Below are positions 1-32,263 of a DNA stretch of 32,263 nt, in pieces. Each line of letters opens with the position of its first letter. Position 1 is the first letter of the stretch. The translations under genes were made by a program, and so were the position numbers. The stretch comes from a virus, in IMG/VR virus record IMGVR_UViG_3300021197_000183, positions 1 through 32,263 of that record; one strand, written 5' to 3'. Under the pieces are notes generated by a model, which made no database searches, was not told where the DNA came from, and worked only from the letters and a program-made list of their open reading frames with translations.

Positions 1-8
1 GTGTAATA

Positions 9-1178
9 ATGTCCCATTCCATTTTACCGCCGTCGTCGGCTGGTATTTGGGGTAAGCCGGACGGTTGTACGGGTTGGGTCTTAATGGCCCAAACTTACCC
101 GGAGACCGAAGAATCCGTCGAAGCCCGAGAAGGTACCGCGTCGCACGAAATAGGCGCCGAGATTATTACGGACGCCCAGACTAACACCCGCCAGCGCCAT
201 ACGGCTAAGGATTGGGTCGGGATTACCGCTTCTAACGGGGTGCTACTTACCGAAGAAATGTTCGACGCTGCCAAAATGTACGCCGACGACGTTATTAAGG
301 TAATGCGTAGTACGGGCGTATTCGGCGGACCTAATATTCGTATCGAACAGCGCGTCGAGATTCCCAGGGTACACGAAATTAACTGGGGTACGCCGGACTG
401 CTCTATCTATCACCAGGCGAGCAATACGTTATACCTTTGGGATTATAAGTTCGGTTTCGAGGTTGTAGAAGCGTTCGAAAACTGGCAAGCGATAGACTAC
501 GTAGCGGGCCTACTGGACGAACTCGAAATTAACGGCCACGTAGACCAATTTACTAAGGTCGTTATCCGTATCGCCCAGCCGCGAGCGTTTCATCGCGACG
601 GACCTATCCGCGAATGGGTTGTCCTGGCGAGTGAGTTACGGGCGCATATCAATATTTTACACGGTAACGCGCATAAGGCCCTAGGCCCCGACGCCGAGTT
701 TAATACCGGTAGCCACTGTAAGCACTGCCCGGGGCGTCATGCTTGCCCGGCGGCGCTTAAAGCCGGTACCAGGCTATACGAAGTCGCTACGAAACCCGTA
801 CCCGTGGAATTATCAGCGGAAGCCCTGGGCGTTCAATTAGCGATAGTTAAGCGAGCCCGTAAACAGTTGGAATACTTAGAGTCTGGATTCGAAGAACAGG
901 CTAAGGGCCTAATCCGTTCTGGCTCCCTGGTATCTGGTTGGGCTACCGAAGAAGGCCTCGGCCGTGAAACCTGGGGTAAACCCATAGAAGAAGTTATCGC
1001 CCTGGGGGATATGCTTAACTTCGAACTTAGAAAACCCGTCGACGCCATTACGCCAAACCAGGCTAGAAAATTAGGTATTGACGACGCCGTCATTACGGCA
1101 TATAGTACAACTCCTCGAACCGGTATTAAAATAGTCCCGGATAATGGTAACAAAGCTAAACAGGTATTTAAAAAATGA
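9..1178 (+). CDS. DUF2800-type PD-(D/E)XK nuclease (RecB/Cas4-like)
   Basis: A 389-residue protein that looks like the phage DUF2800 family of RecB/Cas4-like nucleases, which probably process DNA ends during phage recombination or replication. Visible motifs follow the fold order: His46 in an EGTASHE segment (motif I), Asp130 in GTPD (motif II), Asp145-x-Lys147 in WDYKFG (motif III) and Gln160-x3-Tyr164 (QxxxY). Cys20 near the N terminus and Cys237, Cys240 and Cys246 near residue 240 have the spacing of the four-cysteine iron-sulfur site of Cas4/AddB-like enzymes. The next gene starts inside its stop codon (ATGA), so the two are probably translationally coupled. Only eight bases precede the start, so its ribosome binding site cannot be judged. 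The fold call is strong; the exact substrate is inference. Confidence 0.85.
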   Translation: MSHSILPPSSAGIWGKPDGCTGWVLMAQTYPETEESVEAREGTASHEIGAEIITDAQTNTRQRHTAKDWVGITASNGVLLTEEMFDAAKMYADDVIKVMRSTGVFGGPNIRIEQRVEIPRVHEINWGTPDCSIYHQASNTLYLWDYKFGFEVVEAFENWQAIDYVAGLLDELEINGHVDQFTKVVIRIAQPRAFHRDGPIREWVVLASELRAHINILHGNAHKALGPDAEFNTGSHCKHCPGRHACPAALKAGTRLYEVATKPVPVELSAEALGVQLAIVKRARKQLEYLESGFEEQAKGLIRSGSLVSGWATEEGLGRETWGKPIEEVIALGDMLNFELRKPVDAITPNQARKLGIDDAVITAYSTTPRTGIKIVPDNGNKAKQVFKK

Positions 1179-2164
1179 GCAATCAAAATTTAACGCAAAT
1201 CTTAACCCCGGTCGGTCGTCTAGTACAAGGTGACTGTTTCGAACCTCAAACTACAGACGCGGAAGGTAAACCGCTTCTAATTAAGAATGGCCCGAACGCC
1301 GGCCAGCCTCGCGTAGAGTATTTTATGGCTATCGCGGTACCAAAAACCGACGCCGGCTATAACGAAGTATGGGCCACTATCCATGGCGTAGCCCGCGCGG
1401 CCTTCCCGTCACTATTCGACGCGGCGGGTAACTGTATTAACCCTAAGTTCGCTTTTAAGGTAACTGACGGCGATAGCCGGGTCCCGAACACTAAAGGTAC
1501 GAAACCTTGCGACCGTGAAGGCTTCCCGGGTAACTGGATTATGAACTTTAGCGGCGGATTCGCTCCTAAGTGCTACACGGCTGGCGGTGCGGAACTTATT
1601 ACAGACCCTAATATGCTTAAGCGTGGTTATTTTATCCGTATCTATGGCAGTGTTAAGGGTAACGGTTCAATGCAGCAACCAGGTATTTTCCTTAATCATT
1701 CTATGGTTGAACTGGTAGGCTACGGCGAAGAAATACATAGCGGCCCAGACGGCGGTAGCGTATTCGGTGGCGCCCCTGCGACGAATTTACCAGCGGGCGC
1801 AAGTGCTACGCCTTTGGCTAGTTCTGCCCCTATCGCCCAGGCTGCCCCGGCTCCTGCAGCGGCGCCAATGCCAGGCGCGGCGGCTCCTGCTCCGACTGCG
1901 GCCGCACCAGCGCCCCAGGCTGCAGCACCAGCACCGGCGGCGGCTCCTGCTCCGAGTAACGTACAACCGGCGCCAGACTTCCTTAACGGTCCGGGCGCGG
2001 CGGCTGCCCCGGCCCCGGCCCCTGCTGCAGCACCAGCACCGGCGGCGGCTCCTGCGCCAGTAGAAGTTAAGTACCTGGACGCTAACGGTACCGCATTTAC
2101 AGAAGCGCAACTCCTGGCCGCTGGGTATCAACCAGCACAAATCCAGGCACTAGCGCGCGCTTAA
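1175..2164 (+). CDS. DUF2815-type single-stranded DNA-binding protein
   Basis: A 329-residue protein matching the phage DUF2815 ssDNA-binding family, which usually sits next to a DUF2800 nuclease and a family A polymerase, as here. Residues 1-195 form the folded domain, with conserved-looking stretches such as PRVEYFMAIAVPK (about 45-57) and GYFIRIYGSVK (about 151-161). Residues about 200-295 are a low-complexity Ala/Pro linker. The last 34 residues become ordinary again (VEVKYLDANG onward), giving the domain-linker-tip layout familiar from bacterial SSB, where the tip recruits partner proteins. The role of the tip here is inference. The start overlaps the nuclease stop by four bases. A strong terminator follows 15 bases after the stop, so these first two genes can be made in excess over the polymerase. 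Confidence 0.82.
   Translation: MSNQNLTQILTPVGRLVQGDCFEPQTTDAEGKPLLIKNGPNAGQPRVEYFMAIAVPKTDAGYNEVWATIHGVARAAFPSLFDAAGNCINPKFAFKVTDGDSRVPNTKGTKPCDREGFPGNWIMNFSGGFAPKCYTAGGAELITDPNMLKRGYFIRIYGSVKGNGSMQQPGIFLNHSMVELVGYGEEIHSGPDGGSVFGGAPATNLPAGASATPLASSAPIAQAAPAPAAAPMPGAAAPAPTAAAPAPQAAAPAPAAAPAPSNVQPAPDFLNGPGAAAAPAPAPAAAPAPAAAPAPVEVKYLDANGTAFTEAQLLAAGYQPAQIQALARA
1787..2060 (+). repeat. Ala/Pro-coding low-complexity repeat tract
   Basis: GC-rich tract encoding the Ala/Pro linker of the ssDNA-binding protein. It contains an exact 32-base direct repeat at 1919-1950 and 2024-2055, plus shorter partial copies. Such tracts expand and contract by slippage, so linker length probably varies between relatives. 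Confidence 0.8.
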
Positions 2165-2179
2165 TTGCTCCCTGCCATT

Positions 2180-2209
2180 GGCTCGCCCTTCGGGGCGGGT
2201 CCTTTTTTG
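2180..2209 (+). terminator. Intrinsic terminator after ssDNA-binding gene
   Basis: A GC-rich stem (core CGCCC/GGGCG at 2184-2188 and 2193-2197, extendable with wobble pairs to 2180-2201) is capped by a TTCG loop closed by C-G, the very stable UUCG tetraloop. It is followed by six T at 2203-2208. This is a textbook Rho-independent terminator lying between two same-strand genes. The Shine-Dalgarno GAGGT of the next gene begins at its edge, so downstream expression needs read-through or antitermination. Confidence 0.85.
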
Positions 2210-2219
2210 AGGTAATAAT

Positions 2220-2474: not shown

Positions 2475-2476
2475 CT

Positions 2477-2683: not shown

Positions 2684-5005
2684 ATGCAAGTAATCTACCA
2701 CCCCGAAAGCCATAGCTATTTCCCTGGTAAGTTTTCCGAGCCAGACGCCGCCCAGGGGTGCGTAGTTGTCGACCCGTCGAGCATTCCAGCTTACACCCGT
2801 TTACCTTCGGGCTGCGGGTTTTCTACTGTACTCCCGGATATGGACTTCGAGACTTATAGCGAAGCCGGCTACTACTTCGACGAAACCGCTAAGAAGTGGA
2901 AGTCGATAACGAAGTCGCCTCCGCATGGTATCGGGGCCGTAGGCGCTGCAGCATACGCCGAACACCCTTCGACCGAAGTATTAAGCCTGGCGTACAACCT
3001 TAAAGACGGTTTAGGCGCTAGATTGTGGCTTCCAGGAATGCCGCCGCCTACCGAACTATTCGACCATATCGCCGCCGGTGGTTTACTCGAAGCCTGGAAT
3101 AGTGCCTTTGAGTGGCATATCTGGGAAAACGTCTGTAAGCGTATGGGCTGGCCCCCGTTGCCATATTGGCAATTACGCGACGCCATGGCTAAGTCTCGCG
3201 CTTTCTCGTTACCTGGCGCCCTGGGTAAAGCCGCTAAGGTCCTGGAAGTTACCGACCAGAAAATCGACGACGGTAAACGCCTCCTTAACAAATTTAGTAA
3301 ACCACGTAACCCGACGAAGAAGGACGACCGCCGACGTATTCGACCGGAGGAAGACCACGAAGACGGGGCTAAGTTGTACGACTATAACCTCGGCGATATT
3401 AAATCGGAGTCGGCCGTCTCTGCAGTAATACCAGACCTAAGTAGCGACGAGTTAGAATTATGGCTCTTAGACCAATGTATTAACCTTCGCGGCGTACATA
3501 TCGACGGCGACGCCCTTAGTAATTGCCTGGCGATAGTAGAACAGGCTAACGAAATGTATACGGCCGAGTTAGTGGCGCTTACCGACGGAACCGTTAAAGG
3601 TGCCGGCGAAATAGCGAAGATAACCGGCTGGTTAGGTGCTAACGGCGTCCACATGGCAAGCCTTGACGCCGACCACGTATCGGAAGCCTTAAAGCGCGAC
3701 AATTTACCGCCGACGGCTAAACGTGTCCTACAGATACGCGCGTCCCTGGGCGCTGCTAGTGTTAAAAAATTGTTCGCTATCGACCGCCGACGTTCTAACG
3801 ACGGTAGACTCCGGGACCTTTTCGCTTTCTGCGGCGCTGACCGTACAGGCCGTTTCGCTGGTCGCGGACCCCAGCCCCAAAACTTACCGAATAGTGGCCC
3901 GGCGGTTAGACGTTGCGACCCGGTTAGCGGCTGCGGTAAACATTACGGCCCCCACCTGGATAACTGCCCCTGGTGCCAGACCCCGGAATCATTTAGCGAG
4001 CCGGCCGAATGGTGTATCGAGGCCGTAGAAGACGCGCTCCTGGTGATTGCCTCGCGTAAACTCCAATGGGTCGAACATTACTTCGGCGACGCCGTAGCGG
4101 CTGTTTCTGGCTGCCTCCGTGGATTATTTAGCGCGGCGCCCGGTTGCGACTTCCTATGTTCGGATTACTCCGCTATCGAAGCCGTGGTCTTAGCAATGCT
4201 AGCCGGCGAACAATGGCGTATCGACGTATTCCGGACCCATGGCAAAATATACGAAATGTCCGCCGCTAAAATTACCGGTATCCCGTTCGAAGAATTCCTT
4301 AGCCATAAGGAAAAAACAGGCGACCACCACCCTATGCGGAAGAGAGTAGGTAAGGTAGCCGAACTAGCGTCGGGGTACCAGGGCGGCGTAGGTGCCTGGA
4401 AAGCCTTTGGCGCTGATAAACACATGGATAGCGACGACGAGATTAAACAGGCGGTACAGGCCTGGCGTAAAGAATCGCCTAACGTCGTTAAGTTCTGGTA
4501 TGGGTTGGAAGACGCGGCCGTCGCTGCAGTACAAAACCCGGGCCACTGCTACACGTATAACGGCATTACGTACGGCGTTAAAGACGACGTCCTCTACTGC
4601 CAATTACTTAGCGGTCGTAAGTTATCCTACCACCAGCCGAGATTACACCCGGACGTAACGCCATGGGGTAAACAGGTCCTTAAACTTACGTATATGGGCT
4701 GGAACTCCGACTATAAAAAAGGTCCTACCGGCTGGATGCGATTAGATACGTACGGCGGGAAACTTTGCGAGAACACCGTCCAGGCGACGGCGCGCGATAT
4801 CCTTACGTATGCCCTTAAGAACGTCGAACGCGCGGGCTATGCTGTTGCCTTGCACGTACACGACGAAATAGTTAGCGAAGTCCTGGAAGGTACCGGGTCG
4901 GTAGAAGAATTCGAGCGCATTATGGCAACTATGCCGCCGTGGGCCGAAGGCTGGCCGATACGTGCCGCTGGTGGCTGGCGCGGTAAACGATATAGGAAGG
5001 ATTAA
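2684..5005 (+). CDS. Family A DNA polymerase with 3'-5' exonuclease
   Basis: A 773-residue replicative polymerase of the phage PolA type. The exonuclease motifs are intact: Asp54-x-Glu56 (DFET), Asn139 with FE at 142-143, and Tyr234-x3-Asp238. The polymerase motifs are also intact: GRFAGRGPQPQNLPN at 389-403, motif A DYSAIE at 494-499, motif B around Lys557 and Tyr565, and motif C HDE at 726-728. In motif B the residue aligned with E. coli Phe762 is Leu561, the leucine class discussed for viral PolA. Between the QNLPN element and motif A is an insertion with Cys411, Cys417, Cys428 and Cys431, which looks like a zinc ribbon. No 5' nuclease domain is present. The start is supported by GAGGGG about eight bases upstream. 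The gene sits between small unknowns in the replication operon. Confidence 0.93.
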   Translation: MQVIYHPESHSYFPGKFSEPDAAQGCVVVDPSSIPAYTRLPSGCGFSTVLPDMDFETYSEAGYYFDETAKKWKSITKSPPHGIGAVGAAAYAEHPSTEVLSLAYNLKDGLGARLWLPGMPPPTELFDHIAAGGLLEAWNSAFEWHIWENVCKRMGWPPLPYWQLRDAMAKSRAFSLPGALGKAAKVLEVTDQKIDDGKRLLNKFSKPRNPTKKDDRRRIRPEEDHEDGAKLYDYNLGDIKSESAVSAVIPDLSSDELELWLLDQCINLRGVHIDGDALSNCLAIVEQANEMYTAELVALTDGTVKGAGEIAKITGWLGANGVHMASLDADHVSEALKRDNLPPTAKRVLQIRASLGAASVKKLFAIDRRRSNDGRLRDLFAFCGADRTGRFAGRGPQPQNLPNSGPAVRRCDPVSGCGKHYGPHLDNCPWCQTPESFSEPAEWCIEAVEDALLVIASRKLQWVEHYFGDAVAAVSGCLRGLFSAAPGCDFLCSDYSAIEAVVLAMLAGEQWRIDVFRTHGKIYEMSAAKITGIPFEEFLSHKEKTGDHHPMRKRVGKVAELASGYQGGVGAWKAFGADKHMDSDDEIKQAVQAWRKESPNVVKFWYGLEDAAVAAVQNPGHCYTYNGITYGVKDDVLYCQLLSGRKLSYHQPRLHPDVTPWGKQVLKLTYMGWNSDYKKGPTGWMRLDTYGGKLCENTVQATARDILTYALKNVERAGYAVALHVHDEIVSEVLEGTGSVEEFERIMATMPPWAEGWPIRAAGGWRGKRYRKD

Positions 5006-5010
5006 CTACA

Positions 5011-5268
5011 ATGAGAACTTTAGACGAAATTACTACGGCGGTACGACGTGCCGAGCCCGTTACGACCGAGGAATTAACCCTCGCTATTTGTGCGTACGAC
5101 GTGCTTCTCTCGAAGTTGAAAGTAGAGAATAACCCAGTACAACTACAAGAATATTTCGTCGCCGGGGATAATCCCCCGCTGGCGTATATAGGCCCAGCAA
5201 ACGACCCCCGGAACGCGGAGTCGGTACACTGGCATAAAACCATGATAGGAGTAGAACCGAATGATTAA
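5011..5268 (+). CDS. Hypothetical protein, 85 aa
   Basis: A small protein I cannot assign. The N-terminal half looks helical (MRTLDEITTAVRRAEPVTTE, then ELTLAICAYDVLLSKL); the C-terminal half is less ordered, with a VHWHK segment near residue 75. It begins five bases after the polymerase stop with a strong Shine-Dalgarno (AGGAAGG, eleven bases before ATG). Its last codons overlap the start of the MazG-like gene by eight bases. The position between polymerase and nucleotide-pool genes suggests a replication-linked role, but that is context only. Confidence 0.65.
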   Translation: MRTLDEITTAVRRAEPVTTEELTLAICAYDVLLSKLKVENNPVQLQEYFVAGDNPPLAYIGPANDPRNAESVHWHKTMIGVEPND

Positions 5269-5806: not shown

Positions 5807-5832
5807 TTTTACAATGTAAGCGAGCTAAAACT

Positions 5833-7725
5833 ATGGATTTATACCAGCAATATATACACATTTCCCGTTATTCAAGATGGCGCGACGACCTCGGCCGCCG
5901 TGAAACCTGGGAAGAAACCGTCCAGCGCTACGTCGACTACTTCGACCAGAAGACCGACGGAACTATTACCGATATTCTTAACGGGAAAGTTAAACAGCAT
6001 ATAGCGGAACTTAAGGTTATGCCCTCTATGCGCGCATTAATGACGGCTGGCCCGGCGTTAGAGCGGGAAAATTTAGCCGGCTTTAATTGTTCATACCTGG
6101 CGGTAAATACTAAGCGTTCATTCGCCGAAGCGCTCTATATCTTAATGTGTGGTACCGGCGTCGGGTTCTCATGTGAACGCCAGGAGATAGCGCACTTACC
6201 CGCGATACCGGACGAACTCGGTAAAACCGATAGCGTTATTATGGTGGCGGATAGTAAGAAGGGCTGGTCTAAGGCCTACCATTCGCTGCTTAGTAACCTT
6301 TGGAACGGCGATATACCTAACGTCGACTACAGTAAGGTTCGCCCGGCTGGCGCCCGTTTAAAGGTGTTCGGCGGCCGCGCTTCCGGACCCGACCCACTAA
6401 AGCGCCTATTTATGTTTACTATCGAAATGTTCGATAAAGCCCGGGGGCGAAAACTTAACAGCCTAGAGGTACACGACCTAATGTGTATGATAGGCGAAAT
6501 AGTTGTCGTAGGAGGCGTACGTCGTAGCGCACTTATCAGCCTTAGCAATTTATCAGACCAAAGAATGCGAGACGCCAAGGGCGGCCAATGGTGGACCGAT
6601 AACCCCCAGCGTGGGCTAGCTAACAATAGCGTAGCGTATACCGAGAAGCCTTCGTCCGAGATATTTATGGAAGAATGGCTCGCCCTGGTAAAATCTAAGT
6701 CCGGGGAGCGCGGCATATTTAACCGCCAGGCCGCCGGAAAACAGGCCGCTAAATGGGGTAGACGCGACGAAGACCGTTCGTATGGTTGTAACCCTTGTTC
6801 GGAAATTATTCTCCGCGATAAGCAACTCTGTAACTTATCCGAAGTTATTATCCGGGAAGACGACGACCTCGATACACTTATGGGTAAGGTAGAAGTCGCT
6901 ACTATCCTGGGGACGCTGCAGGCGACGTTAACTAACTTCGGTTTTGTATCGGAAGCCTGGGCGCGAAATACCGCCGAGGAAGCGTTACTCGGGGTTAGCC
7001 TTACCGGTATAATGGATAATAAACTAATGTCGGGTGCCGAAGGTACCGAGAAGTTAACCAAGGCGTTAAACCAGCTTAGAGACCACGCAAGGGTTATTAA
7101 TGACGAGTGGGCCGAACGCCTGGGGATAAATGCTTCTACGTCGATTACGTGCGTTAAGCCGTCGGGTACGGTTAGCCAGCTATGTAATACTGCCAGCGGA
7201 ATACACGCCCGTCACAATCAAAACTATATACGTACGGTTAGAGTCGATAAGAAAGACCCGCTTTACGAGTTTATGAAAGCGCGCGGTTTCGTTACCGAAG
7301 ACGACGTTATGCGCCCAGATAGTACCGCCGTGGTAAGCTTCGCAATTAAGGCGCCGGAAAGTTCGGTTACACGGGACCAGGTTAACGCCATGGAAGCGCT
7401 AGAACTGTGGTTATTGTATCAGCGCGAATGGTGCGAACATAAACCGTCTGTAACTGTTACGGTCCGCGACGAGGAATGGTTAACCGTTGGTGCCTGGGTA
7501 TATGAGCATTTCGACGAGGTTTCGGGTATTAGTTTCTTACCCCATACCGACCATACCTACCAGCAAGCACCATACCAGGATATGACGCCGGCGGAGTTTG
7601 ACGAATGGCAGGAAAAACACCCTACGCCGTCGATAGACTGGAAGGAACTTTCGGATTTTGAAAAAACCGATAACACTACCGGGATGCAGACGCTAGCCTG
7701 TACCGGTAATAGCTGCGAGATTTAA
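5833..7725 (+). CDS. nrdJ: Class II (B12-dependent) ribonucleoside-triphosphate reductase
   Basis: A 630-residue monomeric-type class II ribonucleotide reductase, making dNTPs with adenosylcobalamin as radical source. Compared with the Lactobacillus leichmannii enzyme, the key residues are all visible: Cys86 (C119 equivalent, in NCSYLAV), Asn320-Pro-Cys322-Ser-Glu324 (N406, C408, E410) and Cys333 (C419, in QLCNLSE). The C-terminal redox pair is Cys623 and Cys628, five apart as in C731/C736. It is shorter than the about 740-residue Lactobacillus protein. No nrdB-like or activase gene follows, as expected for class II. The Shine-Dalgarno is weak (GAG nine bases upstream). The enzyme requires cobalamin from the host or environment, a real constraint on host range. 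Confidence 0.93.
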   Translation: MDLYQQYIHISRYSRWRDDLGRRETWEETVQRYVDYFDQKTDGTITDILNGKVKQHIAELKVMPSMRALMTAGPALERENLAGFNCSYLAVNTKRSFAEALYILMCGTGVGFSCERQEIAHLPAIPDELGKTDSVIMVADSKKGWSKAYHSLLSNLWNGDIPNVDYSKVRPAGARLKVFGGRASGPDPLKRLFMFTIEMFDKARGRKLNSLEVHDLMCMIGEIVVVGGVRRSALISLSNLSDQRMRDAKGGQWWTDNPQRGLANNSVAYTEKPSSEIFMEEWLALVKSKSGERGIFNRQAAGKQAAKWGRRDEDRSYGCNPCSEIILRDKQLCNLSEVIIREDDDLDTLMGKVEVATILGTLQATLTNFGFVSEAWARNTAEEALLGVSLTGIMDNKLMSGAEGTEKLTKALNQLRDHARVINDEWAERLGINASTSITCVKPSGTVSQLCNTASGIHARHNQNYIRTVRVDKKDPLYEFMKARGFVTEDDVMRPDSTAVVSFAIKAPESSVTRDQVNAMEALELWLLYQREWCEHKPSVTVTVRDEEWLTVGAWVYEHFDEVSGISFLPHTDHTYQQAPYQDMTPAEFDEWQEKHPTPSIDWKELSDFEKTDNTTGMQTLACTGNSCEI

Positions 7726-7727
7726 CC

Positions 7728-11345: not shown

Positions 11346-12161
11346 TTAGTTGTACTCCACTATGATGCCTAGCCATTGCTGGGCCGGACAAATTTTTAAA
11401 CAAAGCGCTTCGAATTCGTTTTTCCGTTGCGTATTAATCTGGGCTGCAGTGCCGAAGGTCTCGCCGCCTATGTATAGGAAATAAGGCCATTTAGCAGGGT
11501 CCAGGGGTATAAAGTATCTCCTCTCTACATCGTGGTATATTTGGAACGACCCACAAGTAGCTATAGGGTTACCGCAGGTAGCTATAGGGTTACCGGCGGT
11601 TACTTGGTACTTCGGTACTGTCTGCTGCAGCTTATTAACCAGGGGGTACCCGACCGGTTTAAGCGAAGACCCACAAGTCGCCATAGGATTACCACAGGTA
11701 GCTATAGGGTTACCGGCGGTTATAGTTAGACCTGATTCCGTGTTATCGTTCCTAAGAACTGTAAAAGGGTTACGAGGCGTTACGCATTGTTTAACACCTG
11801 GCGCCGGCTCTGTACCTGGTAACCACCATTCATGGACGTAGACGTCGAACCCATTAGCCCGTAACGTGTCCTGGATATATTTAGGGTCCTGGCCGCCTAA
11901 CGCTTTCCATGTGGCGTCTAGCCTATCCCGGCGTTCCTGCTCTGTAAGTCCTGTATCGCCTAGCCCGAATTGCTTATCCCAGCTATCTAGCTCCCTGGTA
12001 GTCTGCGGGAATATATCCAACCAGATACCGTCGAAGAATGTTTTAACGTCCGAACCTACGCCCGATAAACCTTCGAAAAATTGACGGAGTTTTTTATCTA
12101 CCGTAATACGCCAGGCGCGGGCGTTGGGTAAAAGGTGCTTAAATATGCGTAAGAACATCAT
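11346..12161 (-). CDS. Mu gp48-like (DUF2313/YmfQ) baseplate protein
   Basis: A 271-residue baseplate wedge protein of the Mu gp48/YmfQ family, comparable in position to P2 gpI: it follows the J-type baseplate gene and precedes the fibre. The start region (MMFLRIFKHLLPNARAWRI) and the FPQTTRELDSWDKQFGL segment (52-68) are family-like. In the C-terminal half it carries four copies of GNPIATCG or near-identical GNPMATCG, arranged as two pairs separated by about 25 residues, each pair followed by a serine. Those cysteine-bearing repeats are unusual. The ATG overlaps the previous stop (ATGA). Confidence 0.85.
   Translation of the reverse strand: MMFLRIFKHLLPNARAWRITVDKKLRQFFEGLSGVGSDVKTFFDGIWLDIFPQTTRELDSWDKQFGLGDTGLTEQERRDRLDATWKALGGQDPKYIQDTLRANGFDVYVHEWWLPGTEPAPGVKQCVTPRNPFTVLRNDNTESGLTITAGNPIATCGNPMATCGSSLKPVGYPLVNKLQQTVPKYQVTAGNPIATCGNPIATCGSFQIYHDVERRYFIPLDPAKWPYFLYIGGETFGTAAQINTQRKNEFEALCLKICPAQQWLGIIVEYN
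11548..11722 (-). repeat. Two 55-bp imperfect repeats in the gp48-like gene
   Basis: Copies at 11548-11602 and 11668-11722 differ at four of 55 positions, and each contains an internal tandem of the motif GCTATAGGGTTACCG (as read on the plus strand). They encode the paired GNPxATCG units. The differences are mostly at third codon positions, so the protein repeat seems to be maintained. Confidence 0.85.
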
Positions 12162-13354
12162 ACAAAAGTTACCGAACTGGCTTTCGATTTCTCGCCGATA
12201 CCTAGCGAATAGGTTACTACGGATAACGTATTCTGGGTAACCGTTGCGTCTGTAAATATTCCGCCGGAGGCGCTAACGATATCGTCGACGACGCCCCCTA
12301 CTGCGCTGCTAGTTATCCTATCTTTCCTAGGCGGCACCGTTAAGCCCACAATGTAGGGCGCTCGGTCCGTGAAATATTCCTCTACAGCGGTAGTTATGTC
12401 GGCCTGTACTTGCGCCAGGTTACTAACATTTAACCCCGAGACCACTACGTCGAAACCTGTTCGAGTTATAGGGAACGTATTAGCCAGGGCGTTAGCTGGT
12501 CGCCTGGTGGCCCTCCCGTCCTGGTCCAATTCAATAGAGTCTAAAACGGTCTGCAGTTGTGCCGGTGTAGGTATGCCGTCCGGGTCTCCGGAACTTTCCG
12601 GCGTGGCCTCGACGTATACGTCCACCTGGCCGGGGCAATCGCTAGTATACGGGTATACGTTAATAATCCCTGCTGGTTCTTCGCCCCATTGTTCATAATC
12701 GGCATACGCGCCGCCCTGGGGCCTTTTCTGGAATCTGTCTATAATGCGCTGTCGGTATGCTTCGGTACTCTCCGCGTTCGCACCGGTAACGGCCTGTAAA
12801 ACCACAGTGGCGTTACGCGCTACGTTTGCCAGTGGGTTAGCGAAGGAAAGAACCGCGCCGGGGTCTAAGTTACCAATAGTACCCGCACCACCTCCGCCGG
12901 CTTGGTCGGAAGCTGCTAGTACGTTTACTAACTTAGTCGGAGCGTCAAGGAGAACCGCGCCCAGGGTAATATAAGTAACCCCGTTATCGGTACTTACTAA
13001 CTGAGTATTAGAGGGTAGTACGCCCGATTGTATTTCGACTACTACTTCGATTTGAAGCTCCGCGCTTGTCGCGGGTGCTGGGTCGCCGACGCCGATTAAT
13101 CGCCCCCACTGGGTTAGAGGCGTAAATAATACGCCGTTAACCGTCGTTTCTTTGGAGCTAGCCGTCTGTACGAACATTTGCAAGAACATAAACCCGCCGT
13201 ACTTATACAGTAGGACGAATACGCCGGCCAATGCCTTAGCTAAAACCCGTAGAAATGATTTAGGTAATAGCGGGATAGTTTGGTTAAGCGACGCTTCTAG
13301 CTGCGCGATTATATTGTCGCTTATATCTTTGGTTGTAGGTGTCTGTAAGCTCAT
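12158..13354 (-). CDS. Baseplate J-like protein (Mu gp47)
   Basis: A 398-residue baseplate wedge protein of the Baseplate_J family, equivalent to Mu gp47 and P2 gpJ. Recognisable features are the N-terminal helical region (about 15-45), a beta-rich middle with VLPSNTQLVSTDNGVTY (about 117-133), and AESTEAYRQRIIDRFQKRPQG (about 197-217), typical of the family. I place the start at 13354 (MSLQTPTTK) because GGAAGG lies seven bases upstream and this ATG overlaps the preceding stop (ATGA). Part of the run gp43-gp44-gp45-gp46-gp47-gp48 in Mu order. Confidence 0.9.
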   Translation of the reverse strand: MSLQTPTTKDISDNIIAQLEASLNQTIPLLPKSFLRVLAKALAGVFVLLYKYGGFMFLQMFVQTASSKETTVNGVLFTPLTQWGRLIGVGDPAPATSAELQIEVVVEIQSGVLPSNTQLVSTDNGVTYITLGAVLLDAPTKLVNVLAASDQAGGGGAGTIGNLDPGAVLSFANPLANVARNATVVLQAVTGANAESTEAYRQRIIDRFQKRPQGGAYADYEQWGEEPAGIINVYPYTSDCPGQVDVYVEATPESSGDPDGIPTPAQLQTVLDSIELDQDGRATRRPANALANTFPITRTGFDVVVSGLNVSNLAQVQADITTAVEEYFTDRAPYIVGLTVPPRKDRITSSAVGGVVDDIVSASGGIFTDATVTQNTLSVVTYSLGIGEKSKASSVTFV

Positions 13355-13797
13355 GCGCCCGCCTTCCAATTTTCTACGAACTCGAAGCTAGATTCTTCGC
13401 CTATCGCCTCGATATCGATTGTAAGTTTAATTTTATTAAGCCCTGGAATACTAGCGGCCACTTTAACGGACGACGCTACTTTATTCGTAATAAACCAGGC
13501 TAAATCCCTGTTAGCCGCGTCTTCTATGCGGCGTAAATTTCCGGTCGTAGCTGGTAGCGCCTGTAATAAGTTCTGGGTCTCGCTGTGGTACTCCTTGGCG
13601 GGGTCCCCCTCGTCGAGATTAGCCCACCAGTTAGCGCTATTATCTTGGCTGCCGTCGTCGTCTTCATTACCCCCAAACAACGACAAATAAGCGGACGTTT
13701 CAAGCCCGCCGCCCATGGTTACGATACCGCCTTCGACCGTAATATTACCTTCGTCGTCTGTCTGAAATAGGCTAACGTCGCCCTGCTGTTCTGCCAT
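13351..13797 (-). CDS. Mu gp46-like baseplate protein
   Basis: A 148-residue protein of the GP46 family (Mu gp46, functionally comparable to P2 gpW and T4 gp25, wedge lysozyme-fold-related proteins). Typical features are the acidic N-terminal part, the YLSLFGGNEDDDG and NWWANLDEG segments (about 37-63), and LTIDIEAIGEES near the C terminus. It begins within the stop of the spike gene (TAATG) and ends within the start of the J-like gene (ATGA), so translation of the baseplate set is tightly coupled. Confidence 0.85.
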   Translation of the reverse strand: MAEQQGDVSLFQTDDEGNITVEGGIVTMGGGLETSAYLSLFGGNEDDDGSQDNSANWWANLDEGDPAKEYHSETQNLLQALPATTGNLRRIEDAANRDLAWFITNKVASSVKVAASIPGLNKIKLTIDIEAIGEESSFEFVENWKAGA

Positions 13798-19317: not shown

Positions 19318-19325
19318 AATTACCC

Positions 19326-23475: not shown

Positions 23476-24573
23476 TTAAAGCTGAGTATCTAAACAGCCG
23501 AACGTATCGATAGCCGTAGGAATCATTAACGGTCTAGCGCCAACACCCCCGAATAGCTGCTCGCCGTCATTAGATAACCAGGCGTTCGTAAACAAGTCCA
23601 TACCGCCGTCTGCATTACTAACGCGGCCTGGTAGTTCTGGTAGCAAGCCGGTAGCTTGCCCGCCAACTAGCGCGCCGATATTAGGGATAGCGCCGAATGT
23701 GGCGTCCATGCGACCAGAAGAAGCACGTACGACAATCTTACCAGGGTCTAGGAACTGAGTTTTAACGCCTGTTTGTGGGTCTTTATAGCGACCGCCATAA
23801 GTCCACACGTCGTAGCGATAATTACCGATTTCTACGATACCCCGGAAGGTGCCGCCGTTACCGCGCATATCCATAGGGGCGATAGTACCCAGGTCGATAC
23901 GTCGAATATCGAATCGCGCTTGTATTGCCGAATCACTAATAAAGTTTTCGAAAGCATCGATACCCATAAGTAGCTGGTCTGGGTCCGCTAGGCCGTCATT
24001 ACGTACAACTTCCGCCAGGGCGCTAATATCCGCGATTTTCTGGGCGCCTGTAGCCGTAGCCCAGGAAGTGCCAGCCGTCGGGAAGTGCGTAGCTTTAGGC
24101 TTGTAATCAAGCGTATACAGTGCGTTACCGTTGCTATCCGTAAGCGTAACCGTACCGGTTTGTAAAACTTGCGACGCTTGTACTTCGATAGCGCGGCGGA
24201 TTTTACGTTCAATTTTAGTCATACCGTTAAACATACGTAGAATAATGTTCGCTCTAAAGTCCGGAGACTGGAACGGGTCTTGTCCTGGCATACGTTTAAT
24301 AAGGTCGTACGAATTAATAGGTAGTGCTTCCTTATGGATAGGAGGCTTAAAACCTTTATTCGTATACAGGTCTTCGGAGTTCATACGGTATCCCGTACTT
24401 AAATCCTGGATAACGATAGAGATATCTTCGTCGCTACGTACGATATCGATTTCCACTTCTTCCGAAGTATGGAAATTTTCCGGCGGGCTTTGGAATAATC
24501 CCGAAAGGAATAACGTAGGCTGCGCCATTTGCATATATGCCTTAAGCATACGTTTAGTAGTTGAACCGCTCAT
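23476..24573 (-). CDS. Major capsid protein (lambda E-like)
   Basis: A 365-residue major capsid protein of the lambda gpE family. The sequence begins MSGSTTKRMLKAYMQMAQPT and has the family pattern of a charged N-terminal region (SEEVEIDIVRSDEDI, about 37-51), the GYRMNSEDLYTNKGFKPP loop (about 61-78), and QDPFQSPDFRANIILRMF (about 95-112). HK97-type fold is expected from the family. It lies between the decoration protein and head completion genes, as in lambda-like head modules. AGGAG eight bases upstream gives strong initiation. Confidence 0.93.
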   Translation of the reverse strand: MSGSTTKRMLKAYMQMAQPTLFLSGLFQSPPENFHTSEEVEIDIVRSDEDISIVIQDLSTGYRMNSEDLYTNKGFKPPIHKEALPINSYDLIKRMPGQDPFQSPDFRANIILRMFNGMTKIERKIRRAIEVQASQVLQTGTVTLTDSNGNALYTLDYKPKATHFPTAGTSWATATGAQKIADISALAEVVRNDGLADPDQLLMGIDAFENFISDSAIQARFDIRRIDLGTIAPMDMRGNGGTFRGIVEIGNYRYDVWTYGGRYKDPQTGVKTQFLDPGKIVVRASSGRMDATFGAIPNIGALVGGQATGLLPELPGRVSNADGGMDLFTNAWLSNDGEQLFGGVGARPLMIPTAIDTFGCLDTQL

Positions 24574-24986: not shown

Positions 24987-24992
24987 GGTAGC

Positions 24993-26211: not shown

Positions 26212-27351
26212 TTACTGATTTATTGCATAAAAAGTTATTTGGGCCGAAGGTGCGTCGGGGACGTTAAGCGCTTGTAGCGCTGCGCTAGGTACTCCGACTC
26301 TCAGGTCCCCGCTGTCGTTACCGGTGCTACTCCGGGCGAATCTATTTCGTAGTTTAGTCCCTGCGGGTACTTGTATGTTTGATAAGTCAAAAAATACTAC
26401 TGTATCACTGGAACTATTTAAGGGTATGTCTACCGCCGAACCTAGCACGTTCCACGTAACGCCGTCGTCTGTGCTTATTTCCGCCCAGAAGAATAAATCG
26501 CTGACACCAGAAGCGCCGGTCCTTCCCGCTCGGAATCTTTGTTTTATTGACCAGAAAAGAGGGTCAATAACTGTTATAACCCCGTCCGCCCCGACTGTAG
26601 CGCCGCCGTTGGCGGTTGTCCCGCCCCCGCCGAATGTTACGGTTTGAGGTGTGTCTAACGCTCCGACTTGAAGGTCCTGGCTTAAAAAAGTGCCTTGCGG
26701 TGTATACCCTATCGTTTCCGACGCCGCGCCTGCACCGCGAGCGCTCCCGCCGCCACCAGCATTACCCGGATTAAATGGCGCGCTAGCTGCGGGTACTTTT
26801 ATGGTACCGGCCTTCTTTTTCTTACCGTCAAGGAAGACGAAAAGTTCGTTATTATTTAGCTGTACGTCCGTAACGCTTACGCCGTTTTTACCTGGTGCGC
26901 CAGTTTTACCCCGTTGTGGGTTCGGCATTTTCTTAGCGACTTCTTCGGCTGTTGGGCTTACTCCGTCTTTAGGCGTAGGGATTAACTTAGCGGCTTCCGC
27001 TGCGATAACTTTAGGGTCTGGGCTTACGCCGTCCTTCGGCTTCTCGATTTTAGAGAGTACAACGTCGGCGACGTCTCGAACGGAAGGCGGTACCGCGTCG
27101 CGGCCTGGCTTCGGTTCTGGTATTAGTTTAGCCGCTGCTTCTGCTACGGCTTTCGGGTCTGGGCTCACGCCGTCTTTAGGAGCGGGTATTTTTTCCAGGA
27201 CCGCGTTAACGATTTCGTCCGGGTCTGGGCTTACGCCGTCCTTACCATGCTGGACTACCGGGCGTACTTTCTCTAAGCGTTGTACGTCGCCTTTAAGTGC
27301 GGTTAAATCTTGGCGTAGTAGACTAAACGCTCGGGCTAATTTAGCTAGCAT
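26212..27351 (-). CDS. Repeat-stalk fibre-like protein in head cluster
   Basis: A 379-residue structural protein that I cannot assign to a named family. Residues 1-35 look like a coiled-coil start (LLRQDLTALKGDVQRLEKV). Residues 37-160 contain repeats of about 22-25 residues headed by KDGVSPDP (at 37, 59, 106 and 128, with degenerate units near 84 and 155), each followed by a short helix ending in IP. A collagen-like stretch (RGKTGAPGKNG, 147-157) and a Gly/Ala-rich linker follow. Residues about 225-379 look like a beta-sandwich tip. The architecture (anchor, stalk, tip) is that of a fibre, but the gene lies between portal and protease. It overlaps the portal stop by 11 bases; GGGG seven bases before ATG. 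Confidence 0.6.
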   Translation of the reverse strand: MLAKLARAFSLLRQDLTALKGDVQRLEKVRPVVQHGKDGVSPDPDEIVNAVLEKIPAPKDGVSPDPKAVAEAAAKLIPEPKPGRDAVPPSVRDVADVVLSKIEKPKDGVSPDPKVIAAEAAKLIPTPKDGVSPTAEEVAKKMPNPQRGKTGAPGKNGVSVTDVQLNNNELFVFLDGKKKKAGTIKVPAASAPFNPGNAGGGGSARGAGAASETIGYTPQGTFLSQDLQVGALDTPQTVTFGGGGTTANGGATVGADGVITVIDPLFWSIKQRFRAGRTGASGVSDLFFWAEISTDDGVTWNVLGSAVDIPLNSSSDTVVFFDLSNIQVPAGTKLRNRFARSSTGNDSGDLRVGVPSAALQALNVPDAPSAQITFYAINQ

Positions 27352-29029
27352 TAACGACCCCTTTATCTTCTAAATAATCGTCGAGCATAGCTTCGATTTC
27401 TTCCATGTTATCCAGGGTTTCGATAGCGTCCGTAGCCACAAGTTCGCCGAATTCTTGTTTAAACTCGGCTATAGGTCTGGCGGCCTCGACTTTAAGCTCG
27501 TTTTCGCGCTTAAGACGTTTAATATTTTTAGTAAATTTCGTACCCGTGGTAATACGTGCCTCCCTGGCATTAGTAGACCAGCCTTCTTCGACTAGGATTT
27601 TAGAGCCTTTAGCCTGTTTTAGCATATCGGTAGAAGGTTTAATCGACCCGTACCAGTCTGTAGCCGTCCAGGCGCCGAAAATATCGTATTCGTTAGGGTT
27701 GCGCCACGACTGTAGGAGCCCGGGCGCTATAATTTTTTGTAATAAAGTTTCGCTAAGTAGCCATTCGATATAAATAGGGGTACAGAAAGTTTCGCCAAAA
27801 TCTCCCCAGGTACGGTTAATAGCGATTTTAAATTCGTTAATAGCCGCCTGGCTGGCGCTGTAGTTATTCGAAAATGATAGGCGTAATACTTCGGGCGGTA
27901 TTTCTAGGGTCCACGCTACGGCCTGGATAATGGCTTCTTCGAACGTGCCGAAGTTTACGTCGGTACCTTGCCCGCCCATAAGGACCGGTTTTTCCCCTGT
28001 CTGTAGTTCTTCCATAACTAGCCCTGGTATCTGGCTAGCCATATTAAATTTACGTGTACCGCCGTCGCTGTCGGTCGTAACGGCCTGGTCTCTACGTACG
28101 GCGCCGCCGGTTACCGGTAGCGTCCCCATTTTATCCTCGCCCTTCTCGATAAACATAGCCATTATTGAGTTAATAACGGCCTTACGTTGTACCGAATCGC
28201 GGTAGCGGTCGATTTCTTTTAACGACTGCATAACGATAGCTAGCAAAGGCTGGCCGCGTAAATCGTCGAGGCGTTTATCGGTACCATATACTAACCAGGA
28301 TATTTTACGGCCTGATTTTTCACCGACTGCCGGGATACGTTTACTACCGCCGTCGTCTTGCTTAATCCAGTGAGCGACCACACGGCCGACGCTGTCAAGC
28401 TCGACGCCGTGGCGTATCTTGTGGCCTTTACGTAGGTTACCAGCTTCGCCTAGCGGGGTGCGTACCTTGCTCCCGCTAATTAGCTGTACCATGGGTAATT
28501 TAGTTTGCTGGGACTGCCTTACAACGACTAGGACGTCGCCACTAATTAAGGCTTCCATACGTGCGGCGCGCTGAATAGCCCCGAACGTCGATTTTTTCTT
28601 CCAGTCGCATAGCTCCGGGCCTTTAGCCCAGATACCGAAACGGGTTTCTACGGTCTCGGTCCACTCGTTAAGGCTTTCTTCCGGGACGCCGATAATAGCT
28701 TCGTCCGGGCAGGCCTCCGGGTTTAAACCGGTGTTAATTTCGTTAGTTACTAGGCGGCGGATAATACCGCGAGCGTATAAATTTTCGTTAAATAATTGCG
28801 TAGACCTGGCGCGAAGCGTCCAGTAATCGACGTCTTGAATTTGAGTAGCACCAAAACCGCCGAAAAATTTACCGCCGTCGAAAATAGAGTTTTCCCACGG
28901 GGACGGGGAAGTCTGGCCGGCGTATGCGGAAGGCTGCTGTAGGTTATCAAGGGAAACAGGCAAAGCGCCCGAAACGTGTTCGAACGACCCGTCGTTCTTA
29001 AGTCGAAAACGTGGCTTATCTTCTACCAT
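27341..29029 (-). CDS. Portal protein (lambda B-like)
   Basis: A 562-residue portal of the lambda gpB family (Phage_portal_2). Typical elements: AYAGQTSPSPWENSIFDGG (36-54), the YARGIIRRLVTNEINTGLNP region (about 86-105), and ISWLVYGTDKRLDDLRGQPLL in the middle. It forms the dodecameric ring through which DNA enters and leaves. It is flanked by a small connector gene and the fibre-like gene. GAGG about six bases before the ATG; it overlaps the connector gene by seven bases. Confidence 0.93.
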   Translation of the reverse strand: MVEDKPRFRLKNDGSFEHVSGALPVSLDNLQQPSAYAGQTSPSPWENSIFDGGKFFGGFGATQIQDVDYWTLRARSTQLFNENLYARGIIRRLVTNEINTGLNPEACPDEAIIGVPEESLNEWTETVETRFGIWAKGPELCDWKKKSTFGAIQRAARMEALISGDVLVVVRQSQQTKLPMVQLISGSKVRTPLGEAGNLRKGHKIRHGVELDSVGRVVAHWIKQDDGGSKRIPAVGEKSGRKISWLVYGTDKRLDDLRGQPLLAIVMQSLKEIDRYRDSVQRKAVINSIMAMFIEKGEDKMGTLPVTGGAVRRDQAVTTDSDGGTRKFNMASQIPGLVMEELQTGEKPVLMGGQGTDVNFGTFEEAIIQAVAWTLEIPPEVLRLSFSNNYSASQAAINEFKIAINRTWGDFGETFCTPIYIEWLLSETLLQKIIAPGLLQSWRNPNEYDIFGAWTATDWYGSIKPSTDMLKQAKGSKILVEEGWSTNAREARITTGTKFTKNIKRLKRENELKVEAARPIAEFKQEFGELVATDAIETLDNMEEIEAMLDDYLEDKGVVNAS

Positions 29030-29274: not shown

Positions 29275-29303
29275 TACATGACTACGCCCTGAAAGTTACA
29301 GTT

Positions 29304-29335
29304 AAAAAGGTATTTCTATAGACCTACAGTATACC
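29304..29335 (-). terminator. Weak hairpin plus T-run after large terminase
   Basis: On the minus strand, just after the terminase stop, GGTAT (29335-29331) pairs with ATACC (29313-29309). An inner CTGTA/TATAG stem (with one wobble) adds stability, and TTTTT (29308-29304) follows. It is AT-rich and would be weak, an attenuator at most. It would set terminase below the head genes, if functional. Confidence 0.35.
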
Positions 29336-29338
29336 CAT

Positions 29339-31324
29339 TTAATCGCTATAGTAAAGTTTCTCGTTTTCTAGGTAGTCCCAAAACGTCGGCCAGTCTACGG
29401 TATCTAACTCGAAATGCTGTATACATATAGCCCAGGCTAGTATCTCTACCGCCGCGTGACCATAACAGAGTAAATCCCACAATTCATTACGCGCGTTACC
29501 TGGGCGGTACCAGAAGTAAGAGACGTTACCCTTTTCGTCTTTACGTTCGCGCCTGGTCTCGACGGTAAGTTCCTTAAGCTGTTTATCCGAAATATCTATC
29601 GGGGCGTTAAAGTGGTATTTCTTTTGCTCGCCGGCGCCTTCTTCCCATTCTCGGCGAAGTACGGGCGCTAGACGGTCCTTATAGTGGTCTACCAAGATAC
29701 GATACCCGACCGTACCGGCCTGGGTGGTGAACTCCGCGAATTCCTTGATAGTCTGGTTTTTTGCTGGGCGGTCTCGGCCCAGGATAGGGTAAACACCCGA
29801 AGCATAGTCGGAACAGAAAGTCGTAACCGTATCGTTAGCGTAGCCGGCGTCGACCAGGGTAATAGCGACGCGGTACTTTTTGCCGTCGTCGGCCGTATAC
29901 TCTTTTTCTTCGATAAGTTCGCGTAGGCGACCCCATACCGGGCTAGTTAATTCGCTACAGTCGTCTTCGTTGCCTTCCACTTCAAAACGCCAGTAGTCGA
30001 TAACGTAAGGCTTAGAATCTCGGCACCAGCCCATAACACTAACGGCTAAATTCTGTTTATGGACGTCGACCTTACACGTAAGGAACAGAATAGCCGAGCC
30101 GGAAAACTTCTTCGCGTATTCGTTAGGAATCGTACCCAGGCGGTAAGCTGCTCTACGGTGCGCCGATACGCTTGTAAACCGAATTTTAGAGCCCATAATC
30201 TCGAATGGTTCGGCCAAGATATTATTATAAAATACCTGGTACTTACCTATATCGCGGACCTTTTTTTCTATAGGGTCAAAGCCACGGAGATAGGCGCTAA
30301 CGCATTTATACCAGGGCTGCATACCGATAGGCGAGTATAGCGCCGGCAAGTGGTACGAGCGGATACCAGGCTCTACAGGTCTGGCCGTAGGCGTCCATAT
30401 CGCGCCGTGGTCTTCGGAGAATAACCGCTCTTTGTCGTGTTCATAGTGGGCGGTTCCGCAATTTCTACAGCAATACCGGACAGATTCCAGGACCAGGACA
30501 CCGTTATCTAGTTCCCACTGGAAACCCCCTATAACGCCGGTTTTTTTATCAACCGACGACCAGCGTAGTTCCTGGGGAAAGCCGCACGATTTACAAAGTA
30601 CGTTATATTTTCGCTGGTCTCCGCGTAAATACGCCTGCTCTATTTTCGAAGCGCCTTTTACCAATGGCGTAGACCCTCGGAAAATTTTACGACGCTCCCA
30701 GTAGCCCGAACAGCGGTCGTCGCTTAGTGCGTCCGGGTCGCCGTCCTTACCTACCGTGTCGGGCCAGGCGTCTATCTCGTCTTTCAACATCACACAAATA
30801 GAATACGAGCGCATTTTATCGGCATTCTTCGCGCCGAACGGTACCAGGTAGCCGCCGCCTTCAAATTGTAAATGATTAGCAGTTTTACCGGTTTTACGGC
30901 TGTTACCTTCGTCGCTTGAGCGGATAATATGCCCTAGGTCGGAGTGGTTAAGCATGGGTAAAAAGTTGTTTTCGATACGTGCGGCCGCGAGTTCTTTATC
31001 GGCGGTTAGATACATTATCGGGAGCGTTTTAACGTGGCCCATAAAATACAGGGCGCCGGATTCCAGTACCGTAGAGTAGGTAATCTGTACGCCTTTCTTA
31101 AGGTTTACTTCCCGGACCGGGCTATCAATATCGAAACAGTCGACTATCTCACGCATAAACGGGTTAACGTCGTAGCGGATAAATCCAGGGATAGACGTAA
31201 CGGATTCTGGTAGGTACCGGTTTTCTTCGTTGTACTGGCTGGGCGTAACGTGGATTACTTCGTCCGTTAGCCCGTCGACCTCGTCGACCACCCAGTCGGC
31301 GCCGATATTATCAATTTTACGCAT
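29339..31324 (-). CDS. Terminase large subunit (GpA family)
   Basis: A 661-residue packaging motor and nuclease of the lambda GpA type. The ATPase part carries a Walker A-like region KKGVQITYST (about 77-84) and Walker B VMLKDEIDAW (178-187). A zinc-binding pair of CxxC motifs (Cys244/247 and Cys286/289) lies in the linker region. The C-terminal nuclease part contains KVDVHKQNL and ITLVDAGYAND with conserved acidic residues. It drives DNA into the prohead and makes the end cut. GAGGG about eight bases before the ATG lies inside the small-subunit gene, and the two genes overlap by eight bases. Confidence 0.92.
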   Translation of the reverse strand: MRKIDNIGADWVVDEVDGLTDEVIHVTPSQYNEENRYLPESVTSIPGFIRYDVNPFMREIVDCFDIDSPVREVNLKKGVQITYSTVLESGALYFMGHVKTLPIMYLTADKELAAARIENNFLPMLNHSDLGHIIRSSDEGNSRKTGKTANHLQFEGGGYLVPFGAKNADKMRSYSICVMLKDEIDAWPDTVGKDGDPDALSDDRCSGYWERRKIFRGSTPLVKGASKIEQAYLRGDQRKYNVLCKSCGFPQELRWSSVDKKTGVIGGFQWELDNGVLVLESVRYCCRNCGTAHYEHDKERLFSEDHGAIWTPTARPVEPGIRSYHLPALYSPIGMQPWYKCVSAYLRGFDPIEKKVRDIGKYQVFYNNILAEPFEIMGSKIRFTSVSAHRRAAYRLGTIPNEYAKKFSGSAILFLTCKVDVHKQNLAVSVMGWCRDSKPYVIDYWRFEVEGNEDDCSELTSPVWGRLRELIEEKEYTADDGKKYRVAITLVDAGYANDTVTTFCSDYASGVYPILGRDRPAKNQTIKEFAEFTTQAGTVGYRILVDHYKDRLAPVLRREWEEGAGEQKKYHFNAPIDISDKQLKELTVETRRERKDEKGNVSYFWYRPGNARNELWDLLCYGHAAVEILAWAICIQHFELDTVDWPTFWDYLENEKLYYSD

Positions 31325-32201
31325 TTTTTAACGCCCTCGCTACTTTGGCCTTAACGGGTCGTATAAAACTGGTTAGCTGGTCGGCGACGAATTTTTCGAT
31401 ATCTTCGAGCGGTCTTTCGGCCGAGTGCATGGCAGTAGCGCGCCTAGCGATTGTCTTAGCGCCGTCCGTAAGTAATTTAATATGGCAGGCGTCTATAGGT
31501 TCGATAATCCCTGTACGGACTAGTTTACGGCTAACGAGTTCGCCTTCGGTGGTAGCGTTTTTAAGCCGCTTTTCGTTAATGGCTTCGATTTTTTGCGTAG
31601 CGCTTAGCCAGTCGACGAAGCGGGTATCTGTACCGAATTTTTCGATAAGTTCGAGGAGCGTCATATCTGCGAATGCCTGTATATCTTCTGGAATTTCGAA
31701 TATTTCGTCTTCCTGGTCTACCTGGCGTTTCTTCGCCGCTTTAACTGCAGCGGTACCGCGTACGTGTGGTTTCAACTTCTCGACGGCCGCTTCGATTTCC
31801 CCTTCCTGGATAACCACGGGGGCAGGATTCTTTAAGCCTCCGGGCTTCGTCGGGTCTCTGCCTTCCGGTATCAAGCCGTTAGCGCGCATCGTCGTAATTA
31901 TACTGTGGGCTCGGTTGTACCCTATTTTAAAATGCCGCTGCAGCCCCGAAACCGAATAACGGTCGGCGGTCCTACAGTGTTCGACGGCTTCTTCGTAGAT
32001 AGCGTCGAGCCCAGAAGCGGGCGGCGGGGTCTGGTCCCGGAGTTTTATTTCCAGGTACGAAACGGCGGAAGGGTGCGCGGCGTCTATACGCTTGCCCTCT
32101 ACGGCGTCTTTAAGAATGTTATTACAGGCCTTCGTCACTGCTGCAGCGCTTACGCCAGCCTGGCGGGCAAATTCGGCCCGGCTTACTAATTTTTTAACCA
32201 T
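31317..32201 (-). CDS. Putative terminase small subunit with FtsK-gamma-like domain
   Basis: A 294-residue DNA-binding protein directly before the large terminase. Residues 1-55 resemble the helix-turn-helix of lambda Nu1-type small terminases (SRAEFARQAGVSAAAVTKA). Residues 66-112 are strikingly like the gamma domain of the FtsK DNA translocase: IYEEAVEHC, then VSGLQRHFKIGYNRA and IITTMRANGLIPE. In FtsK this winged helix reads the KOPS octamer. Residues 165-294 are charged and helical, fitting oligomerisation and large-subunit contact. No Shine-Dalgarno lies at normal distance from the ATG (GAGGAGG is 19 bases upstream), and the frame is open, without a usual start codon, to the window edge. 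Role in recognising the packaging site is inference. Confidence 0.75.
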   Translation of the reverse strand: MVKKLVSRAEFARQAGVSAAAVTKACNNILKDAVEGKRIDAAHPSAVSYLEIKLRDQTPPPASGLDAIYEEAVEHCRTADRYSVSGLQRHFKIGYNRAHSIITTMRANGLIPEGRDPTKPGGLKNPAPVVIQEGEIEAAVEKLKPHVRGTAAVKAAKKRQVDQEDEIFEIPEDIQAFADMTLLELIEKFGTDTRFVDWLSATQKIEAINEKRLKNATTEGELVSRKLVRTGIIEPIDACHIKLLTDGAKTIARRATAMHSAERPLEDIEKFVADQLTSFIRPVKAKVARALKNA

Positions 32202-32207
32202 GGAAGG

Positions 32208-32236
32208 AGTATAGCGGAATCCCTCCTCGAAGTTAA
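32208..32236 (-). promoter_or_regulatory. Candidate late promoter
   Basis: On the minus strand TTAACT (32236-32231) and TATACT (32213-32208) are separated by 17 bases, four of six and five of six matches to the sigma-70 consensus. The TATACT ends six bases before the terminase ATG, so transcription would begin at or next to the start codon, giving a leaderless mRNA. It could equally be chance. Confidence 0.35.
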
Positions 32237-32263
32237 GAGCGGTTAAACAATCAGAATTTGTGC

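Follow-up and report, generated by a model that had tools for sequence, protein, structure and literature searches.

Complete absence of GATC in a tailed phage lineage, maintained by selection among close relatives that retain the site

The loss of the tetranucleotide GATC from phage genomes has been described before. In the section of the paper concerned (PMC6532042), GATC is given as eliminated from the 140-kb genome of Staphylococcus phage K, and this is read as an escape from Sau3A. For phiX174, an excerpt of a 2015 paper (PMC5014478) reports a GATC-free genome where 20 sites would be expected in 5.4 kb, and the same excerpt states that it is still not clear what drives the avoidance of GATC. 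The removal of recognition sites is presented as a standard route of evasion in the relevant portion of a review (PMC12707154). Here, we describe the absence of GATC from IMG/VR virus record IMGVR_UViG_3300021197_000183, a stretch of 32,263 bases that was analysed as a whole (hereafter the window) and is probably a fragment of a tailed phage genome.

Compared to phage K, the window is similar in that a lytic phage genome without GATC is read as having escaped a GATC-cutting Type II enzyme. However, phage K, at 140 kb, has a known host enzyme, whereas for the window we infer the enzyme, and close relatives with GATC exist. With phiX174 the window shares the complete absence of the site. In contrast, the small phage phiX174 infects a known host with Dam and MutH, while the window also purges other palindromes and its relatives on presumed Dam-positive hosts retain GATC. 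The nearest annotated relative, Shewanella baltica phage SppYZU01, shows the same purge of CCGCGG, AACGTT and TCGCGA and the same third-codon-base rule described below, but its loss of GATC is not total, with two sites left. The kind of phenomenon is therefore already known, and the novelty lies in this lineage and in its close kin, which are not uniform in the trait.

An exact search of positions 1..32263 on both strands yielded 0 matches to GATC, in agreement with the total absence noticed in an earlier sequence-only reading of the window. The expectation of about 126 sites given there equals the value of 126 obtained from base composition; a range of 59 to 89 is fairer and leaves the conclusion unaffected. 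A Markov model gave 59 sites and 100 dinucleotide shuffles gave 75.5 +/- 7.8, while 300 codon-preserving shuffles, in which synonymous codons were exchanged among the 35 open reading frames (ORFs) taken as coding (31,383 coding bases), gave 88.8 +/- 7.9 with a minimum of 70. The Markov and codon-shuffled backgrounds, proposed in that reading as a check, thus lie far above the determined count, and the codon shuffles come nowhere near zero. With random synonymous codons (200 runs), 135 sites would be expected (range 109-165). GATA and GATT, claimed to be common, occur 209 and 97 times on the plus strand, and the other tetranucleotide palindromes, claimed to be present, were all found (15 of 15, 48 to 273 times each). 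Tetramers one base off GATC amount to 1,304 on the plus strand. Among the aspartate codons of the called genes (474 GAC and 210 GAT), not a single GAT stands before a C. The window is poor in TG/CA, which results in low counts, but not in zero, for CATC/GATG (37), CTGA/TCAG (41) and TCA/TGA (285, both strands). An artefact of assembly or library preparation is judged unlikely, since SppYZU01 was obtained as an isolate and two sister contigs show the same.

These sisters, the closer kin of the window, are the IMG/VR contigs G001 (41,985 bases) and G002 (42,591 bases), whose terminases are 99% identical to that of the window, and both contain 0 GATC over their full length. SppYZU01 (KY622015) was the sole nucleotide match among phage records, with 76.7% identity and 43% coverage of the first 25 kb of the window, and comprises 2 GATC in 43,567 bases, at 38,048 and 43,533. 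Between the window and G001, which diverge by 8.2%, 1,082 one-step neighbours of GATC could be aligned, for which the other 15 palindromes, at their mean rate, predict 19.5 gains of GATC, while 0 were seen. The same calculation predicted 19.9 gains compared to G002 and 35.1 compared to SppYZU01, again with 0 seen, and in each of the three comparisons all 15 of the other palindromes had been gained. The lack of new GATCs where about 20 are expected at only 8% divergence indicates that selection removes the site continuously.

The same picture was obtained from the GATCs of relatives that retain the site. At aligned positions of the window, none of 41 was kept for G016, none of 46 for G017 and none of 25 for L050, whereas every other palindrome was partly retained; in the case of G016, this ranged from TCGA (25 of 51) and GTAC (17 of 43) down to AGCT as the lowest (10 of 61). 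The most frequent replacement of GATC was a single transition, leading to GGTC or GACC. Altogether, the retention of 0 of 41 and 0 of 46 sites and the 0 gains compared to 19.5-35.1 expected show that GATC was lost through selection on the site and not through mutation bias. Long-term purifying selection against GATC, as suggested by the sequence-only reading, is strongly supported and is still active. Site avoidance in the window is real, extreme and actively maintained.

Among 127 sequences, consisting of the loci gathered and the window, 26 contain less than 0.10 of the GATC expected from base composition; several of these 127 are paired pieces of a single contig, and L126 belongs to the window itself. 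For the terminase, a tree of 80 rows, 69 of them distinct, was calculated by a quick method with Shimodaira-Hasegawa-like approximate likelihood ratio test (SH-aLRT) support only. On this tree, the 17 rows under 0.15 of expectation need 5 changes, and well-supported branches force 4; these changes may be gains or losses. Two members of the 10-row clade of the window, L050 and L055, have terminases 86% identical to that of the window and contain 29 and 27 GATC, respectively, where 50 are expected. The first 40 kb of G016, the record of L055, comprise 74 GATC compared to 90 predicted from dinucleotides. The levels in the kin run from somewhat reduced to normal, but not to zero. The loss of GATC is an unstable trait of lineages and has appeared repeatedly in the family.

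As the origin of this selection, restriction-site avoidance against a host Type II enzyme that cuts GATC is the most likely explanation, to which we assign a probability of roughly 60%. GATC is not the only site affected. In the window, CCGCGG was found 0 times compared to 17.6 expected, AACGTT 0 times compared to 10.7 and TCGCGA once compared to 10.1; for CCGCGG, the values are 0 of 23.4 in G001 and 1 of 38.9 in SppYZU01, and the genomes of the window lineage purge further palindromes beyond these three. In a second GATC-free clade (G008, comprising L141-L143, as well as L102, L043 and L085), close relatives differ in the sites of 4-5 bases that they avoid. G008 lacks GATC and contains GAATC/GATTC at 0 of 57 expected, GCATC at 1 of 39 and GAAGG at 2 of 76. 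L102, likewise without GATC, shows GCATC at 1 of 21, GGATG at 1 of 22 and GAAGG at 1 of 34 and retains GAATC (18 of 25), and L085 contains 57 GATC together with GAATC at 1 of 23 and GAAGG at 1 of 25. Because the purge extends to other short sites, and to different ones in close relatives, restriction is favoured as the agent, and it would presumably cut unmethylated rather than methylated GATC. A shifting list of short sites would be the trace expected from a shifting set of restriction enzymes. The selecting agent would then be a host enzyme of the MboI/DpnII/Sau3A type that cuts unmodified GATC and is common enough among the hosts to make each new site costly; as neither the window nor G001 showed a GATC-shielding methyltransferase, the removal of the site would itself be the defence. 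Of the GATC-targeting host system proposed by the sequence-only reading, the restriction part is favoured by the other purged sites and their differences among the kin, with a putative enzyme.

In a Pfam scan (E 0.01) of all 35 ORFs of the window, which is a fragment, no methyltransferase family was matched, and PF02086, PF01555, PF00145 and PF05869 had no match in G001 or SppYZU01. The sister G002 contains a gene for a C5-cytosine methyltransferase (L133:7319-8626, minus strand), which is found neither in the window nor in G001. CCGCGG occurs 6 times in G002 compared to 21.1 expected, while it is 0 in the window and G001, as if a putative methyltransferase shield had relaxed the pressure. Regarding METHYLTRANSFERASES in the kin, 2 of 31 records matched PF02086, namely the GATC-poor G008 and G012, as did 2 of 29 in another search (MuM16-1 and Thanatos-1). 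PF05869 was present in 1 of 34 records (G027) and in 2 of 15 others (X14 and 97.13), all three of which retain GATC; 7 of 34 records matched PF01555, G015 with its low GATC content among them, and 4 of 34 matched PF00145. Many records in these searches are fragments. The genes in G008 and G012 encode D12-type methyltransferases (PHROG 56) on the minus strand (L127:1057-1758 and L128:958-1692) of genomes with almost no GATC. Adenine methyltransferase carriage was rejected as a predictor of GATC content, since all three PF05869 carriers retain the site (0.68-1.40 of expectation) and only one of the four PF02086 carriers does so (0.89; the others 0.00, 0.05 and 0.23), from which no clean rule can be derived. 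A base replacement by 2-aminoadenine was also rejected, since no PurZ-type gene (PF00709) was found in 20 records.

Several observations weigh against restriction as the agent. Neither a host nor a GATC-cutting host enzyme was identified, a terminase scan of bacterial genomes having given two metagenome-bin contigs. The GATC-bearing kin are themselves somewhat low in the site, as can be seen for L055 (27 of 50). The CCGCGG count of G002 is a single case, for an enzyme that may have another target. Furthermore, the GATC-poor G008 and G012 carry a D12-type (PF02086) and G015 an N6/N4 (PF01555) methyltransferase, which may act on other sites, while a GATC shield should be superfluous once the site has been removed. 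Finally, 6-base palindromes as a class show an observed/expected ratio of 0.89 in the window compared to 0.86 each in the GATC-bearing G016 and G017. A stronger general palindrome avoidance in GATC-free genomes was not found in this comparison.

Two other explanations involve the methylation of GATC by the host. Under-methylated DNA of a fast-replicating phage could be nicked by MutH at GATC, or otherwise burdened, in hosts with Dam methylation and methyl-directed mismatch repair, which we consider an unlikely origin of the loss. Deschavanne and Radman (1991) reportedly put the GATC loss of enterobacteriophages down to Dam-directed mismatch repair. This attribution is cited in the passages concerned of PMC5014478 and PMC8541194, and such a counter-selection has been discussed for phiX174 as well; PMC8541194 describes a Dam-like enzyme in Shewanella sp. 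M16, which would fit such a mechanism. A partial depletion of GATC was determined for the Shewanella phages 1.049.O (0.22), 1.083.O (0.36) and Thanatos-1 (0.23, first 50 kb) and for the Vibrio phages VP16T (0.37) and 1.009.O (0.43), and the retention of GATC (0.68-1.40) by all three carriers of PF05869 (Dam) points in the same direction. However, the temperate phage M16-3 of the Dam-positive Shewanella sp. M16 contains 102 GATC (0.66) and S0112 of Shewanella indica reaches 1.14 (first 50 kb), both without PF05869 or PF02086. Within the family, CKB-S1 (Vibrio) and AeroV_348 (Aeromonas) showed 1.28 and 1.34, respectively, PF01555 not having been searched in either. PY6 (Pseudoalteromonas, 1.29) and SFCi1 (Shewanella fidelis, 0.90) also retain the site, but are not clean tests, as each carries an N6/N4 methyltransferase. 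Except for M16, the hosts of the compared phages are taken by us to be Dam-positive. Mismatch repair would moreover leave the purged CCGCGG and AACGTT unexplained, as well as the sites that vary between relatives; GATC is not the only purged site, since CCGCGG, AACGTT and TCGCGA are purged in the window and 5-base sites in its kin. The escape from Dam-linked control suggested by the sequence-only reading is thereby weakened: several phages from this family and further phages of Shewanella, with presumably Dam-positive hosts, retain much GATC, some of them with methyltransferases of their own, while others are partly depleted. Dam-positive hosts alone do not seem to yield zero GATC, although they may contribute. 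It is quite improbable that a methyl-dependent enzyme (DpnI-like, Type IIM/IV) cuts Dam-methylated GATC, so that phages from Dam-positive hosts must lose the site. In the part of the source concerned (PMC6286503), GATC was under-represented in 46 of 46 phages with hosts encoding Type IIM enzymes, as such a cutter would predict. Nonetheless, the PF05869 carriers among the compared phages retain GATC, which is the opposite of the selection expected from a methyl-dependent cutter in shared hosts, although the hosts may differ, and no such host gene was seen, in a situation where host genomes could not be searched.

A further explanation arises from the composition of the window, which shows TA odds of 1.42 and CA/TG odds of 0.60, with the third codon base being T before A and C before G or C. 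At codon junctions, the ratio is 2.1 for T before A compared to 0.37 for C before A, 0.43 for T before G and 0.41 for T before C. At fourfold sites, T makes up 58% of third bases before A and 11% before G, while C amounts to 12% before A and 40% before G. This third-base rule was also found in L130-L132, L001 and SppYZU01, and it is much weaker in the GATC-bearing G016 and G017 (1.16 and 1.22 for T before A at junctions). A TA of at least 1.2 combined with a CA of at most 0.8 was observed in 17 of 17 GATC-poor rows compared to 7 of 63 others, which would agree with a compositional side-effect, in which high TA and low TG/CA remove GATC without any selection on the site. This is barely credible, since dinucleotide shuffles still yield about 75 GATC and codon-preserving shuffles 89, and since the 7 other rows with the signature retain GATC, up to 2.64 of expectation. 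In addition, the link between signature and GATC loss comprises only 4 independent pairs on supported branches, for which a sign test is not significant. As the sole cause, the signature is ruled out by the shuffles and by the signature-bearing rows with GATC, and because of the former the third-base rule is not needed for zero GATC. It also appears very unlikely that GATC loss and the third-base rule are two outcomes of one unrecognised constraint at the DNA level, entered and left by lineages, for which base modification, the replication mode or a defence reading very short steps would be candidates, for example. A limited search of the literature on TpA excess in phages revealed no account of the third-base rule.

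The window is shorter than the sister contigs, and its gene content is that of a tailed phage, with a replication block on the plus strand and a lysis, structural and packaging block on the minus strand. The former comprises exonuclease-like and single-stranded DNA-binding genes, a family A DNA polymerase (2684..5005; PF00476, E 3.9e-11; PHROG DNA polymerase, E 2.8e-95), which served as bait for relatives, a pyrophosphatase-like gene and a ribonucleotide reductase (5833..7725; PHROG ribonucleotide reductase, E 8.9e-186). The latter contains lysis, baseplate, tail, capsid, portal and terminase genes, including a baseplate J-like protein (12158..13369; PF04865, E 1.5e-27), the major capsid protein (23476..24573; PF03864, E 1.1e-23), the portal protein (27341..29029; PF05136, E 6e-54) and the terminase large subunit (29339..31324; PF05876, E 7e-44; PF20454, E 1.3e-37), on which the family tree is based. 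The lineage is probably contractile-tailed and lytic, and its hosts are presumably Shewanella-like. No tRNA, sought as a host clue, was found in the window. The terminase scan of bacterial genomes, aimed at related prophages, led only to contigs binned as Nitrospinota and Shimia (L150 and L151), which perhaps represent free phage binned with bacteria; the terminase gene of L151, as matched, has one internal stop.

Further observations concern single genes. After a short gene at 5011-5268, the window contains the pyrophosphatase-like and ribonucleotide reductase genes (5261-7725), and at the same spot G002 carries a ThyX (Thy1) gene (L133:17561-18274, plus strand), so that genes of nucleotide metabolism seem to be swapped at this position. 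An endonuclease VII-like gene (15634-16155, minus strand; PHROG 1035, E 2.6e-21) lies between tail genes. It looks like an insertion, since the counterparts of the flanking genes are directly adjacent in G001 (L131:4545-5780 and 5764-7008). Antisense to the tape-measure gene, an ORF of 616 amino acids (17483-19333, plus strand) matched no Pfam family, and it may be kept open because TCA, the complement of an antisense TGA stop, is scarce on the coding strand.

For the family as a whole, terminases that are 86% identical combined with GATC contents of either none or half and more of the expectation constitute a natural experiment. Such matched relatives would allow the explanations of GATC loss by restriction and by Dam/MutH to be separated. 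The phages of the family each seem to purge a different set of sites, and such lists, if taken as traces of the restriction enzymes encountered by a lineage, could point to the hosts and to unknown enzymes.

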